Origin: Agrobacterium vaccinii
Lineage (GTDB): Bacteria > Pseudomonadota > Alphaproteobacteria > Rhizobiales > Rhizobiaceae
Length of the DNA stretch: 64,000 bases
Direction: 5' to 3'
Assembly (NCBI RefSeq): GCF_021310995.1
Contig: NZ_CP054150.1
Coordinates: forward strand, 744,001-808,000
Shown here: piece after piece, positions 9,332-60,378 of the stretch
Numbering within the stretch: position 1 is the first letter of the stretch
Layout: each line of letters opens with the position of its first letter
Notes under the pieces: model-generated
What the model was told of the DNA's origin: nothing
The model's input: the letters and a program-made list of their open reading frames with translations, nothing else
Database searches by the model: none
Program-made: the position numbers and the translations under genes

Positions 9332-9496
9332 GGCTTACCCCCTCTGTCCTGCCGGACATCTCCCCCACAAGGAGGGAGATCGACTCGGGGCGACCTCTCG
9401 GTCACCTCAAACGTCGAGAGTGGAGCGATGTCGGCGCGCCTTGCTTATCTCCCCACCTGTGGGGGAGATGCCCGGCAGGGCAGAGGGGGGTAAGCC
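9332..9496. repeat. Dispersed palindromic repeat, family A, copy 1
   Basis: The ends ggcttacccccctctgtcc-like and cagaggggggtaagcc are mutually inverted, with inner arms gacatctcccccac/gtgggggagatg. Similar elements lie at 36287-36470 and 60201-60378. This copy sits inside the choline operon between choX and choW and will fold into a long hairpin in the mRNA. Confidence 0.85.
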
Positions 9497-36220: not shown

Positions 36221-36567
36221 GGTTCGGGGGCTTTGGGCGGCAGTAACAGTCTTGGCGACGGTGGTTTGTCGCCTTGTCGCGGCTGTAGTGGGTGGGGCTC
36301 ACCCCCCTCTGTCCTGCCGGACATCTCCCCCACAAGGAGGGAGATCGGCTGGGCGCTCTGACACCACTTCACTCTCGACGCGAGAGATGGCCGAGAGCTC
36401 TCCACGAGTCGATCTCCCCACCTGTGGGGGAGATGGCCGGCAGGCCAGAGGGGGGTAAACCCCACCCACTGCCGCCTGCGAACTTACGCGCCGCCACAAC
36501 ACAAAAAGCGCCAACGCTAACGCATCGACGCCTTCCAACTGCATCCAAATTTCCGCTAAAAATCAGC
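36221..36567. other. Spacer between convergent genes, filled by a palindromic repeat
   Basis: No gene is seen. Most of the spacer is the family A element at 36287-36470; the rest is simple sequence between the DUF1491 and DUF2336 gene ends. Confidence 0.6.
36287..36470. repeat. Dispersed palindromic repeat, family A, copy 2
   Basis: The outer arms agtgggtggggctcaccc and gggtaaaccccacccact enclose cctctgtcctgccggacatc and gagatggccggcaggccaga as inner arms. Its position between convergent gene ends suggests it works as a two-way terminator. Confidence 0.85.
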
Positions 36568-47253: not shown

Positions 47254-48072
47254 ATGCTGCCCCGCTGCGCCGTTCTTAAAGCTCTGTGCCTGACCGCTTT
47301 CGGTTTGTCACCCGTTTGGGCCTATGCCGCCACCCAGCCTTATGAATGCACCTTCGTAACATCGGTGGAAACCGGCGCGGTCATTACCCAGCAGGGCACC
47401 TGCGACAAGCGTGTTTCCCCCGGTGCCACGTTCAAGGTCCCGCTGGCGCTGATCGGCTATGATTCCGGCATTCTGCTGGATGAATTCAATCCCGTCTGGG
47501 ACTGGCAGAAGGGCATGGAGGCAGCGCCGCAGGAGCGCAAGAAGGTCGATCCGTCCACCTGGCAGAAAGAGTCGATCCGCTGGTACTCCCGCGAAATCAC
47601 GAGCCGCCTTGGGCCGGAGAAATTCGCCAGTTACGTCAAACGTCTGGGCTTCGGCAATGCCGATGTGGCGGGAGAGGCAGGCAAGGATAACGGCCTGACG
47701 GACGCCTGGGTCGGCACGTCTCTTGCCATTTCCCCAGTCGAACAGATCGGCTTCATGCGCCGCCTGCTGGCCAACAATCTGCCATTTTCCCGCGATGCCC
47801 AGAACAAGACCAAGGCCATCATCCCAGTATTCGATGGCGCCGAAGCCTGGAGCGCCCACGGCACGACCGGCACCGGCAACCTCAAGGGCGACGACGGCCA
47901 ACCAGACCCCAACCGCCCCTTCGGCTGGTTCGTCGGCTGGGCCGAACGCGAAGGCCAGCACATCGTTTTCGTCCGCTTCCGTGTGGCCGATAAGCCATCG
48001 GACAAGCCGATGGGAGAGGTAGTGCGTGAGGAGTTCTTGCGGGATATTCCTCGGTTTTCGGTGCACCGGTGA
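47254..48072 (+). CDS. Class D beta-lactamase homologue lacking catalytic residues
   Basis: The 272-residue protein has a signal peptide (about 1-25) and the class D fold. [16 protein letters not shown] matches the S-x-V region and FGN at 133-135 the Y-G-N motif. The S-x-x-K motif reads P-G-A-T-F-K-V-P, with Ala58 where the nucleophile Ser should be and Lys61 kept. The K-T-G motif reads H-G-T-T-G-T-G, with Thr204 in place of Lys. The rest ([33 protein letters not shown]) is intact and the frame is open, so this is a folded but probably non-hydrolytic protein. Both changes were checked codon by codon (GCC at 47425, ACG at 47863). Confidence 0.85.
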
Positions 48073-48970: not shown

Positions 48971-51634
48971 ATGAACGAGACCATCAAGACTTTAACCGCG
49001 CCAGAGCCGATTTCCGTGTCCGTGGAAGGCATGACCTGTGCGTCCTGCGTGCGGCGTGTGGAGGTGGCGGCGGGGAAGGTGCCGGGGGTGGCGGCGAGTT
49101 CGGTGAATTTTGCGACGAAGAAGCTAACGGTGGAACCGGGGGCGGGGTTTTCTGCAAAGACACTGGCTGCGGCGGTGAAGAAAATTGGTTACGAGGTTGC
49201 GCCTCAAACGATGACGCTTTCGGCGCATGGCTTGAAGGGTGCGGATGATGCGGCGCGGTTGAAGACTGTGCTGGAAGCTGCGCCGACCACTATAAATGTG
49301 GAGGTGGATGCGCAGAGCGGGACTGTGACCATCGAGAGCTTGGGCGGTGCGCGTCAGCGCGATGTGTTGGTGGAAACGGCTCGGCTGGCCGGGTTTGCGT
49401 TGAACGTTCCGGGTGCCGCTGGCCGCGATCATGCAGGGCATGAGCACAGCCACCATGCCAGCGACGAGGCGACGCTGAAGCGGGATGTCATTCTGGCGGC
49501 CATCCTCACCGCGCCGCTCTTCGTGCTGGAAATGGGTGGGCATCTTTATGAGCCGATGCACCATTGGTTGATGGGCGTCATCGAGACGCAGACGCTGTAT
49601 TACATCTATTTCGCACTGGCGACGGTGGTGATTTTCGGGCCGGGATGGCGCTTTCTAAAGTCCGGTTTTCCAGCGCTTGTGCATGGTGCGCCGGAGATGA
49701 ATTCGCTGGTGGCGCTGGGGGTGAGCGCGGCCTATCTCTATTCGCTTGTGACGACCTTTGCCCCAGGCCTGCTGCCGGAGAACGCCCGGCACGTTTATTA
49801 TGAGGCCGCGACCGTCATCGTCACGCTGATCCTGATCGGACGGTTGCTGGAGGCCCGCGCCAGCGGCAACACTGGCGATGCTATTCGTAAACTAGCGAAC
49901 CTTCAGGCCAAGACGGCACGGGTGGAGCGGGGCGGGCAAACGCTCGATATCGCGCCGGAAGAGGTGGTGGTGGGTGACATCATCATCATTCGCCCCGGCG
50001 AGCGCCTGGCCGTGGATGGAGACGTGGTCGAGGGCGCGTCCTATATCGATGAATCGATGATTTCGGGCGAGCCGGTGCCGGTGGAAAAGACGGTGGGCGC
50101 GCATGTCACTGGCGGCACCATCAACAGGAATGGCACGCTGAAATTTCGCGTCACCAAGGTCGGGGCGGATACGATGCTGGCGCAGATCATCCGGTTGGTC
50201 GAGCATGCGCAAGGCGCGAAATTGCCGATCCAGCTTCTGGTCGACAAGGTCACTGCGCTGTTCGTGCCTGTCGTCATCGCCATCTCGGTATTGACTTTCA
50301 TCGTCTGGGCGCTGTTCGGGCCACAGCCTGCCTATACCTACGCAATGATCAATGCCGTGGCCGTTCTCATCATCGCCTGCCCCTGTGCCATGGGGCTCGC
50401 CACACCGACATCCATCATGGTCGGCACGGGAAGGGCCGTGGAACTGGGCGTGCTGTTTCGCAAGGGCGCCGCCTTGCAGGCACTGAGTTCCGCCGGGATT
50501 GTTGTGGTGGACAAGACGGGGACGGTGACGAAGGGTCAACCGGAGTTGACTGATCTGGTGTTGGCAGAAGGGTTTGAGCGCCGTGAGGTATTGAGGCTGG
50601 TGGCGGCAGTGGAAAGCCGGTCGGAGCATCCGATTGCCGAGGCGATTGTGCGGGCGGCGCGTGGGCAAGAACCCCTCCCCAACCCCTCCCCACAAGGGGG
50701 AGGGACTAACCCAGCCGCACCGTTAGGAAATAGAATGGTGGGTCTGCCGCACGGTCTCTCCCCCCTTGTGGGGGCAGAGGAGCGGTCTGCGCAGCAGAGT
50801 AATCGATCCAGTGAATCGATTGCAGCGACGAAGCCCGGCAGGGCAGAGGGGGTCTTCACTCCTACAATAACCGACTTCCAGAACATTCCCGGTTACGGCA
50901 TCTCCGCCACCGTTGATGGCCGCAAAGTCGACGTCGGCGCAGACCGCTTCATGTCCAAACTCGGCCTTTCCATCGCGCCTTTCGCTGACACCGCACAAAA
51001 GCTGGGCGATGAAGGCAAGACGCCACTTTACACAGCCATTGATGGTCAACTGGCAGCGATCATCGCGGTGGCGGACCCGCTGAAACCATCTAGCGTCCAT
51101 GCCATAAAAGCCTTGAAATACATGGGCATAGAGCTGGCGATGGTGACGGGGGATAATGCCCGCACGGCAAAGGCCATCGCCCGTCAGGTGGGCATCGAGA
51201 AGGTGGTGGCCGAGGTGCTGCCGGAGGGCAAGGTGCAGGCGATCCATGATCTGCGGCGGGGCGGCACGACGCTGGTCTTCGTGGGCGATGGTATCAATGA
51301 CGCACCAGCGCTGGCTGAAGCCGATATCGGTATCGCCATCGGTACCGGCACGGATGTCGCCATTGAAAGTGCCGATGTGGTGCTGGTGGGTGGTGATCTG
51401 ATGGGTGTGGTCCATGCCATCGAGATGAGCTGCGCCACCATGCGCAACATCCGCCAGAACCTGTTCTGGGCGTTCGGCTACAACGTCGCGCTCATTCCCG
51501 TGGCGGCAGGCGCGCTTTATCCCGGCTTCGGCATCATGCTGTCGCCGATGATCGGCGCGGGTGCCATGGCGTTGTCCTCGGTCTTCGTGCTGGGCAACGC
51601 CTTGAGATTGAAAACAGCGGGGGTATCGCCATGA
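48971..51634 (+). CDS. copA: CopA, Cu+-exporting P1B-type ATPase, with in-frame repeat insertion
   Basis: The 887-residue pump has a heavy-metal domain with GMTCASC (Cys23, Cys26), a second degenerate one without Cys, and a His-rich stretch (about 157-166). Then follow eight helices with C470-P-C472 (IIACPCAMGL), D514 in the phosphorylation motif DKTGT, the SEHP motif, MVTGDNARTAKAI and GDGINDAPALAEADI. Between SEHPIAEAIVRAA and IPGYGISATVDG, residues about 566-629 are encoded by a palindromic repeat and are rich in Pro, Gly, Arg and Ser, so the protein is longer than usual. The ATG at 48971 follows aaaggggaaatccc. It overlaps cueR by ATGA. Confidence 0.93.
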   Translation: MNETIKTLTAPEPISVSVEGMTCASCVRRVEVAAGKVPGVAASSVNFATKKLTVEPGAGFSAKTLAAAVKKIGYEVAPQTMTLSAHGLKGADDAARLKTVLEAAPTTINVEVDAQSGTVTIESLGGARQRDVLVETARLAGFALNVPGAAGRDHAGHEHSHHASDEATLKRDVILAAILTAPLFVLEMGGHLYEPMHHWLMGVIETQTLYYIYFALATVVIFGPGWRFLKSGFPALVHGAPEMNSLVALGVSAAYLYSLVTTFAPGLLPENARHVYYEAATVIVTLILIGRLLEARASGNTGDAIRKLANLQAKTARVERGGQTLDIAPEEVVVGDIIIIRPGERLAVDGDVVEGASYIDESMISGEPVPVEKTVGAHVTGGTINRNGTLKFRVTKVGADTMLAQIIRLVEHAQGAKLPIQLLVDKVTALFVPVVIAISVLTFIVWALFGPQPAYTYAMINAVAVLIIACPCAMGLATPTSIMVGTGRAVELGVLFRKGAALQALSSAGIVVVDKTGTVTKGQPELTDLVLAEGFERREVLRLVAAVESRSEHPIAEAIVRAARGQEPLPNPSPQGGGTNPAAPLGNRMVGLPHGLSPLVGAEERSAQQSNRSSESIAATKPGRAEGVFTPTITDFQNIPGYGISATVDGRKVDVGADRFMSKLGLSIAPFADTAQKLGDEGKTPLYTAIDGQLAAIIAVADPLKPSSVHAIKALKYMGIELAMVTGDNARTAKAIARQVGIEKVVAEVLPEGKVQAIHDLRRGGTTLVFVGDGINDAPALAEADIGIAIGTGTDVAIESADVVLVGGDLMGVVHAIEMSCATMRNIRQNLFWAFGYNVALIPVAAGALYPGFGIMLSPMIGAGAMALSSVFVLGNALRLKTAGVSP
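50668..50858. repeat. Palindromic repeat inside copA, in frame
   Basis: The left side carries aacccctccccaca-type runs with cccacaaggg, the right side ctctcccccttgtgggggca, and the end gcccggcagggcagaggggg. These match the inner arms and end of the family A repeats, in a diverged form. It adds about 64 codons without a stop or frameshift. Confidence 0.8.
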
Positions 51635-52041
51635 ACATCGGTCAGGCATCGCAGGTCTCAGGCGTTTCAGCCAAAATGATCCGCTATTACGAGCAAATCG
51701 GCCTAATCACGCCCGCCGCCCGTACCGGCAACAATTACCGAACCTATGGCGAGCAGGACGTGCACAATCTGCGCTTCATCAAGCGCTCCCGCACGCTGGG
51801 CTTTTCGCTTGAAGAAACGGAAACGCTGCTGAAACTCTGGCAGGACAAGACCCGCGAAAGCTCAGCCGTGAAGGACATAGCGCTCGCCCACATCAATGAT
51901 CTCGAGCGCAAGATTGCCGAGATGAAAGCCATGGTCAAAACGCTCTCCCATCTCGCCCACTGCTGCGGCGGCGACCACCGGCCCGATTGCCCCATTCTGG
52001 ACGATCTGGCAGGCATCGACGCTGCCGCTTCGCAGACATAA
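51631..52041 (+). CDS. cueR: CueR/HmrR, copper-responsive MerR-family activator
   Basis: The 136-residue protein has the MerR helix-turn-helix (NIGQASQVSGVSAKMIRYYE), a dimerisation helix (about 78-108) and the C-terminal copper-binding loop HCCGGDHRPDCPI (about 110-122) with the two Cys of Cu+/Ag+ sensors. Its ATG overlaps the copA TGA, so activator and pump are co-transcribed. It should bind the operator at 48918-48948. The rhizobial orthologue is often called HmrR. Confidence 0.92.
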   Translation: MNIGQASQVSGVSAKMIRYYEQIGLITPAARTGNNYRTYGEQDVHNLRFIKRSRTLGFSLEETETLLKLWQDKTRESSAVKDIALAHINDLERKIAEMKAMVKTLSHLAHCCGGDHRPDCPILDDLAGIDAAASQT

Positions 52042-52067
52042 TTCGCAACGAAACAAAGGATACCACC

Positions 52068-52268
52068 ATGGAAACCAATACCTTCACCGTTCCCGACATG
52101 ACCTGCGGCCACTGCGAGAAGACCATCCGCGGCGCGCTGGCAGAGGCGCTTCCCGGCGCGAATATCGGCATCGATCTGCCCACACATCGTGTGACGGTGA
52201 CTGGTGATGCTGCGATGGCTGAGGAGGCGATACGAGAGGTGGGGTATAGCCCGGAACGGGTGGGATGA
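52068..52268 (+). CDS. copZ: CopZ-like copper chaperone
   Basis: The 66-residue protein is one heavy-metal-associated domain: TNTFTVPDMTCGHCEKTIRG with M-T-C-G-H-C, then ALPGANIGIDLPTHRVTV and a closing IREVGYSPERVG. It delivers Cu+ to CopA. It starts 26 bases after cueR, aaaggataccacc precedes the ATG, and it completes the copper operon. Confidence 0.9.
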   Translation: METNTFTVPDMTCGHCEKTIRGALAEALPGANIGIDLPTHRVTVTGDAAMAEEAIREVGYSPERVG

Positions 52269-52382: not shown

Positions 52383-52649
52383 ATGACGGTAACGACAAAA
52401 ATCAGACGGCAGGGCGGTGCTGCGGTCATGACCATACCGCCCGCTTTGCTGAAGCTCATGGGAACCGAAATCGGTTCGGAAATGACACTCGAAATCGACA
52501 ACGGAAATCTTGTCGCGAGCCCGGTGACAACGCAAAAAAAGCGCTACTCGCTTGCAGAATTGCTGGAGGGCGCTGATGAAATGGCTGAGCTGAACGTGGA
52601 AGCTTCGGCCTGGGACGCAGCGCCGCGTGTGGGCAAAGAAGCGCTGTAA
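52383..52649 (+). CDS. mazE: MazE-like antitoxin (AbrB/SpoVT DNA-binding)
   Basis: The 88-residue protein has a swapped-hairpin AbrB fold at the N-terminus (TTKIRRQGGAAVMTIPPALL, then GTEIGSEMTLEIDNGNLVAS) and a C-terminal helical tail (YSLAELLEGADEMAELN) that would bind the toxin. The position directly upstream of mazF, with a one-base overlap, identifies it. It should repress the promoter through the palindrome at 52286-52309. Confidence 0.87.
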   Translation: MTVTTKIRRQGGAAVMTIPPALLKLMGTEIGSEMTLEIDNGNLVASPVTTQKKRYSLAELLEGADEMAELNVEASAWDAAPRVGKEAL

Positions 52650-53008
52650 TGGTGCGCAGCAATGTTCCAAAGCGCGGCGACGTGTTTCTCATCGATCTCA
52701 ACCCGGTGGTCGGCAATGAGATGAAGGACGAACATCGCTGTGTCGTCATTACGCCAAAAGAGATAAATGCCGTTGGGCTGTGCTTGGTCGTACCGATAAC
52801 GACTGGAGGTATGTTTACCCGTAAAGCGGGCTTGGCGGTCAATATTTCCGGGCAGAGAACGACCGGCGTTGCGCTGTGTAATCAAGTACGAAGCCTCGAT
52901 ATTGCTGGGCGTATCGCGCTAAAGAAAGCAAAATTTCTCGAAACGTTGGATGATGCTACGATGCAGGAGATCGTGGCGAGGGTCGTCAGTGTGATCGACC
53001 CAGCATAG
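52649..53008 (+). CDS. mazF: MazF-like endoribonuclease toxin
   Basis: The 119-residue protein has the PemK/MazF core: RGDVFLIDLNPVVGNEMKDE (with the G-x-x-x-x-x-H region), HRCVVITPKEINAVGLCLVV, VPITTGGMFTRKAGLAVNIS, and VALCNQVRSLDIAGRIALKK carrying the catalytic Arg/Thr-type region (N-Q-x-R-S/T). It should cut mRNA at short sequences when free of the antitoxin. Its first base is the last base of mazE. The frame is intact. Confidence 0.88.
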   Translation: MVRSNVPKRGDVFLIDLNPVVGNEMKDEHRCVVITPKEINAVGLCLVVPITTGGMFTRKAGLAVNISGQRTTGVALCNQVRSLDIAGRIALKKAKFLETLDDATMQEIVARVVSVIDPA

Positions 53009-60200: not shown

Positions 60201-60378
60201 GTTGGGGCTTACCCCCCTCTGTCCTGCCGGACATCTCCCCCACAAGGAGGGAGATTGGCTGGGCGTACGAACCCCGCTCTATCCGCAGCGTTTGAGGTGG
60301 GCGAGACCTCTCCGCGATTCGATCTCCCCACCTGTGGGGGGAGATGCCTGGCACGGCAGAGGGGGGTAAGCCCCACCC
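60201..60378. repeat. Dispersed palindromic repeat, family A, copy 3
   Basis: The outer arms gttggggcttacccccctct and gaggggggtaagccccacc enclose gacatctcccccac and gtggggggagatgcc. It sits between convergent selO and the lysine dehydrogenase gene and can serve as a two-way terminator. Confidence 0.85.

Follow-up and report, generated by a model that had tools for sequence, protein, structure and literature searches.

A palindromic mosaic, made of a motif A, a spacer, a motif B and a nested module, is read in frame inside the copper pump gene copA in the window, as we call the whole 64,000-nucleotide stretch of Agrobacterium vaccinii analysed here. We think it probable that a REPIN- or BIME-like non-autonomous palindrome entered copA once, is tolerated as a linker in a loop, and has been kept as a palindrome, that is, as DNA or RNA. 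This extends a known phenomenon to the Rhizobiaceae, and the evidence favours retention of the palindrome over retention of the peptide.

The insertion in copA

copA (48971..51634; this and all features inside it are on the plus strand) is a single open frame of 887 amino acids. Its product has HMA (PF00403), E1-E2 ATPase (PF00122) and HAD hydrolase (PF00702) domains in Pfam. It also carries CPC, DKTGT, SEHP and GDGIND, which we take to be the motif set of Cu+-exporting P1B-type ATPases (CopA); domains and motifs together place it in this class. The best solved relative found by phmmer is the copper efflux ATPase 3rfu (E 6.8e-177), and CopA residues 565-626 fall opposite a gap in that alignment, at the extra stretch. 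This stretch is free of stops, rich in Pro, Gly, Ser and Arg, lies between SEHPIAEAIVRAAR and NIPGYGIS, and adds about 55 amino acids to an uninterrupted gene. A sequence-only reading of the window had claimed an in-frame insertion at 50668..50858. Comparison with relatives agrees and places it at 50669..50853, downstream of the SEHP motif and ahead of the GYGIS strand of the nucleotide-binding domain; the ends were set by eye against insert-free rows and are uncertain by several codons. The open frame also bears out the claim that the insertion is read through, as residues rich in Pro, Gly, Arg and Ser, without stop or frameshift. In its own genome, copA has no second match at E <= 1e-100.

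The insert is visibly palindromic. Positions 50688-50700 and 50761-50773 form exact 13-nt inverted repeats, and the core of motif A recurs, inverted, as the core of motif B. The RNA of 50664-50870 is predicted to fold at -93.8 kcal/mol (z = -3.41), and none of 200 dinucleotide shuffles reaches so low a value. When 50600-50900 is searched against the whole genome with blast, a second copy is found at C1:833916-834033 (82% identity, E 7.2e-23), along with two shorter ones; these copies rule out chance similarity as the source of the repeats. The sole Rfam match in copA and its surroundings, a frameshift element, scores 18.7 bits against a gathering score of 53 and was taken as chance.

That the insert derives from repeats, as the earlier reading proposed, is thus supported by exact inverted arms and genomic copies; that it is one repeat is not. 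Motif A (AACCCCTCCCCAACCCCTCCCCACAAGGGGGAGGG, 50670..50704) reads PLPNPSPQGGG and has three genomic copies at up to three mismatches, this one included. Its 12 codons are identical in four of the five insert carriers, with one silent change in the fifth (L009). A variable spacer of about 48 bases follows (50705..50752). The 5' half of motif B (TCTCCCCCCTTGTGGGGG, 50753..50774) reads LSPLVG and resembles a genomic B family. It is cut off from its 3' half by a nested module (50775..50832) that contains a short palindrome (50801-50821) and is single-copy in its own genome at up to three mismatches. The 3' half (GCCCGGCAGGGCAGAGGGGG, 50833..50853) reads PGRAEG, is identical in four species and also occurs at window position 9470.

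The nested module is present in L005-L007, whereas L008 and L009 lack it. In L008 the insert is otherwise the same and motif B is undivided, so the module came later or was lost there. L009 (genome G018) keeps motif A, and other palindromes, of the TTCTCCCCGTGGGGGAGAAGG type, replace motif B and occupy the second half of the insert, which suggests that different repeats may pile up in one CopA loop. One genomic copy (L002) has the same A-spacer-B order as the insert in copA.

CopA insertions in relatives

A CopA orthologue is present in 34 of 39 genomes of the same genus; the other five have only a homologue that is more distant, with 53-61% identity. EHP and GYGI lie 29-35 residues apart in 29 of these orthologues and 71-119 in five. 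The extra loop is thus absent from 29 of the 34, as would be expected of an insertion. The five carriers form one side of a single branch (support 99/98), an A. rubi-like clade that includes the window's own species. Because the insertion is common to assemblies of five species, a sequencing error is very unlikely.

Among the best 80 of 586 confirmed stretches in a survey of named genomes, in which motif spacings only were compared, three further CopA proteins (L049, L064 and L094) have this repeat inserted in loops other than that of the window's copA. Orthologues in other genera therefore do have the repeat, but at different loops, which strengthens the case for insertion. At site 2 (L049 and L064) the insert follows a GADRF/Y-MVKLG motif in frame, with B before A in L049 and A before B in L064. 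Another genome (G272) has a CopA insert of the L049 type at this site (L333). At site 3 (L094) the in-frame insert precedes RKLAFVGDG and is missing from the relative with which it was compared (L041); the reading frame of motif B in L094 differs from that elsewhere. All nine CopA inserts examined (L005-L009, L049, L064, L094 and L333) are in frame and free of stops. No target-site duplication could be defined for them.

Two CopA proteins deviate in other ways. That of Rhizobium sp. Leaf306 (L108) has about 15 extra in-frame residues near site 3, without an obvious palindrome and unlike the repeat. In Rhizobium sp. LCM 4573 (L046) the tblastn match spans 3120 bases, and the open frame has 838 residues and normal motif spacing.

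The motif B family

Motif B is found at 87 sites in its own genome, a count that leaves out the split copy in copA. The sites make up 46 elements, 41 of which are inverted doublets, and the 87 arms have a mean identity of 0.881. With arms as defined here, 28 of the 41 doublets are exactly 156 bp long and 30 have a length divisible by three. Stops are absent from 106 of the 246 doublet frames, compared to 23.4% in base-shuffled doublets, and 39 of the 41 doublets have at least one open frame; in the doublets inspected, stops lie mostly in the middle. Since stops are scarce in every frame of the G+C-rich arms, and since 156 bp, the length seen most often, is divisible by three, reading through the element should often be possible. 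Further motif B elements in the window lie at 9357-9470 and 36322-36435, both inverted doublets, and at 60232-60254.

In the own genome, 31 frames span an element, and a domain scan covered the 20 longest, all of at least 152 aa. Two of these, RibD and a di-haem oxidoreductase, hold the element, a CcmH domain begins after it in one more, and 17 have no domain. Hence only two of the 46 elements were found in frame with residues upstream and a Pfam domain downstream. Across the Rhizobiaceae, a peptide search matched 32 of 297 genomes. Eight loci with long frames were inspected and five frames scanned: one is a CopA, one is terminase-like with the element near the N terminus, and three have no domain. 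The terminase-like frame (L334:226-1899, minus strand, genome G266; PF03237 and PF17289) carries a B-type doublet in frame near its predicted N terminus. Intragenic copies were also sought in a plasmid collection with an incomplete gene table: of 60 among 126 matching records, 53 had no annotated feature at the best place and 7 had no annotation; for 60 of 101 records matching a second search, these numbers were 56 and 4.

REPINs are associated with RAYTs, transposases of the Y1 type (PF01797). None of the 39 genomes of the genus has a match to this domain (the control matched in 5 of 14), which rules out mobilisation by a PF01797 transposase.

Other host genes

The search for the repeat inside other genes, proposed together with the copA claim, was successful: motif B doublets lie in ribD and apparently also in a di-haem oxidoreductase gene. 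In ribD one motif B doublet (P0002) lies in frame, and the frame matches RibD_C in two stretches. A complete in-frame insert is present in 24 of 39 genomes and an in-frame remnant in one (G034); 11 genomes have no insert. Proteins with the complete insert have 113-140 residues between two RibD anchors; nine of the 11 insert-free rows could be measured and have 66-83. The frame is broken within the insert in 2 of 26 complete cases (G013 and G027), leaving separate deaminase and reductase frames. In one A. rubi genome (G019; L223, L267 and L277) the assembly breaks at these repeats: contigs stop within the ribD insert, and one contig starts at that of the di-haem oxidoreductase.

On a tree of the RibD flanks from 34 genomes, presence of the insert needs two changes, well-supported branches included. 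Two insertions at nearly the same loop are therefore the simplest account. The flanks of G005 and G006 are 99.4% identical and the interiors of their inserts differ. Interior types, labelled by hand, are not clustered on the tree (138 and 125 of 500 shuffles are as low). That interiors can be exchanged fits gene conversion or recombination between copies; selection on the hairpin may also play a part. The number of elements in a genome is associated with the RibD insert (p 1.9e-5 with relatedness ignored; 28 against 11 genomes, the 28 including the remnant, the two broken cases and the one broken by contig ends).

In the di-haem oxidoreductase frame (PF06537) of four genomes (G000, G018, G022 and G031), a doublet is read in frame after an apparent signal peptide and ahead of the domain. 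In the own genome this frame is G000:C1:188886-190595 (L158; further loci L273-L275), with a less secure true start. Motif B is read there in a different frame from that elsewhere. G030 has a shortened, ambiguous version of the doublet.

Conservation of arms, spacers and hosts

Rates were compared over 22 of the 24 complete in-frame RibD inserts, leaving out G002 (ambiguous bases) and G006 (deletion) as well as the G034 remnant, and over four of the five CopA inserts, leaving out L009, whose second half differs. All pN/pS values are Nei-Gojobori averages over pairs, uncorrected for relatedness. In RibD the arms have a pS of 0.057 and a pN of 0.068 (pN/pS 1.20), compared to a pS of 0.458 and 0.325 in the two flanks, where pN/pS is 0.18 and 0.34; for the middle of the insert it is 0.84. 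The arms are therefore kept at silent sites too, and amino-acid changes in them are not avoided. In the four CopA carriers, each from a different species, motif A has no substitution, among few sites (about 10 of them silent); pN/pS is 0.82 in the spacer and 0.13-0.14 in the flanks. Taking both proteins together, insert parts with any silent change range from 0.8 to 2.8, depending on part and subset, and flanks from 0.11 to 0.34. By these values the arms appear to be conserved as DNA rather than as protein, the spacers look near-neutral, and the host proteins CopA and RibD are evidently under purifying selection.

The two RibD arms pair with each other in 97.4% of cells, and sliding them by 1-3 columns reduces this to 58.1% or less. 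Six of 45 pairs have changed on both sides. Of 500 shuffles, none reaches the observed covariation score, 2 reach the number of pairs changed on both sides and 25 that of further pair types. In copA, the inserts of all five clade members, and that of L049, fold more stably than every same-length window sampled from the coding sequence. In L064 and L094 the most stable window sampled elsewhere in the coding sequence surpasses the insert.

Discussion

Rickettsia palindromic elements (RPEs) are palindromic, dispersed and found in frame inside conserved proteins (sections of PMC2229807 and PMC10969869), and a guanylate kinase carrying one was shown to be active (PMC2229807, in the part available). 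The sequence-only reading had likened the copA insert to RPEs, and in kind the likeness holds: the motifs are dispersed in the genome and lie in frame inside conserved genes, CopA and RibD, with a further B doublet apparently in the di-haem oxidoreductase gene. The hosts differ, and the likeness, drawn from descriptions, need not be one of descent. Nearly half of the first RPEs were intragenic, according to the accessible text of a 2024 review (PMC10969869), whereas here in-frame reading was seen for just 2 of the 46 motif B elements.

The elements have the form of REPINs and BIMEs, two inverted palindromic units around a variable spacer, in 41 of 46 elements of the own genome and in copA. REPINs are described as inverted doublets whose arms are conserved and whose spacer is less so, with compensatory changes and an extragenic distribution (sections of PMC3116915). 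The doublet form is shared, and so are the compensatory changes, which are seen in RibD; the copA arms hardly vary. The differences are that our elements lie partly inside coding sequence and that no match to a Y1 RAYT was found in the 39 genomes, so we call them REPIN-like and not REPINs. In-frame REPs and REP dimers of the GTAG and CGTC families have been reported in many species; in some cases a gene is hit at nearly one position, as recB is in two Xanthomonas (PMC3733652, in part). GTAG repeats are often near RAYT genes according to the same sections, in contrast to the genomes studied here. Agrobacterium is absent from the main text of that paper, and CopA and RibD are unnamed in its section on intragenic REPs.

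Among rhizobia, the Rhizobium-specific intergenic mosaic elements (RIME) and the AB and C palindromes of Sinorhizobium are likewise repetitive and mosaic or palindromic, and are described as intergenic (PMC2573895, in part); our comparison with them is by description only. REPs of Sinorhizobium, Agrobacterium and Bradyrhizobium are treated in PMC1525189 and PMC5082802, in whose available sections no in-frame case was seen. We recognised no report of an in-frame palindromic insertion in Rhizobiaceae in the literature searched, which is weak evidence of absence since most subscription journals, and the supplements, lay outside the search.

Under our preferred explanation, a mobile element would have invaded copA a single time, before the A. 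rubi-like clade diversified, and landed with the frame kept at a loop of the N domain that is presumably exposed and disordered. The insert would have changed later, through the nested module in some species and through other palindromes in L009. Insertions that spoil the host would be removed by purifying selection, and CopA, presumably still active, would tolerate the Pro/Gly/Ser-rich peptide as a linker. Tolerance at a loop, already suggested by the earlier reading, is supported by the position of the insert in the alignment and by the selection on the copA flanks. Upkeep of the palindrome could come from the numerous copies in the genome, through gene conversion or re-invasion, from selection acting on the hairpin, or from both.

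One could also argue that the hairpin is useful in the coding RNA, for instance by slowing ribosomes or setting mRNA stability, and that selection on this role keeps the arms. Synonymous rates several-fold lower in the arms than in the flanks, the compensatory changes in RibD, and the stable folds of the five clade inserts and of L049 are all consistent with such a role. However, the arms are alike across the whole genome, so their conservation need not come from the gene; interiors differ between G005 and G006 despite nearly identical flanks, and in L064 and L094 the insert is not the most stable of the windows compared. We therefore regard such a role for the hairpin as rather unlikely. It is improbable that the peptide has been recruited for a function in the protein, for example as a regulatory or partner site of CopA. 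PLPNPSPQGGG and SPLVGEMPGRAEG-like peptides do recur in CopA lineages, and a motif B peptide recurs in RibD. Nevertheless, L094 and the di-haem oxidoreductase translate motif B in a different frame, the middle is unconserved, and we take the pN/pS of the inserts, far above that of the flanks, to rule out recruitment at the protein level.

Two further possibilities concern whether the segment reaches the protein at all. If ribosomes skipped it or the mRNA were cut, the broken ribD frames of G013 and G027 would be of less consequence. These two may be sequencing errors, however, and skipping does not require that 24 of 26 complete RibD inserts and nine of nine CopA inserts be in frame; we find this account very hard to believe. 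Least credible of all is an assembly artefact or a decaying pseudogene. The A. rubi contigs (G019) that break at the inserts are what speaks for it. It is already contradicted by the occurrence in five species of one clade, by the selection on the copA flanks and by the want of another copA-like match in the genome.

Returning to an element that entered copA and is tolerated there, a wider version of this explanation is possible, though we hold it tentatively. Two layers would act on one stretch of DNA: a palindrome kept with compensatory changes, and a host that is a mere tolerant carrier, with certain loops (three in CopA, and one in RibD apparently hit twice) repeatedly colonised. If this is true, Rhizobiaceae palindromes keep supplying free-living bacteria with new disordered loops. 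In-frame palindromic insertions have been reported from several bacteria, unusually often as the RPEs of Rickettsia. Similar protein evolution in other prokaryotes has been called conceivable (PMC10969869, in part). Here, such segments occur in free-living bacteria, in a copper pump and in the riboflavin enzyme RibD; those in RibD extend over most of a genus, and relatives have empty sites and the segments more than one origin. The gain of segments by proteins from mobile DNA thereby becomes testable in tractable hosts. A practical consequence is that some genes break in assemblies exactly at these repeats.

Neighbouring genes

By inspection, a MerR-type regulator and a small HMA-type copper chaperone lie downstream of copA (window 51631-52268), as in a cue/cop operon. 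They are followed by two small genes resembling a MazE/MazF toxin-antitoxin pair (52383-53008). On the other side of copA, a frame at 47254-48072 resembles a class D beta-lactamase.
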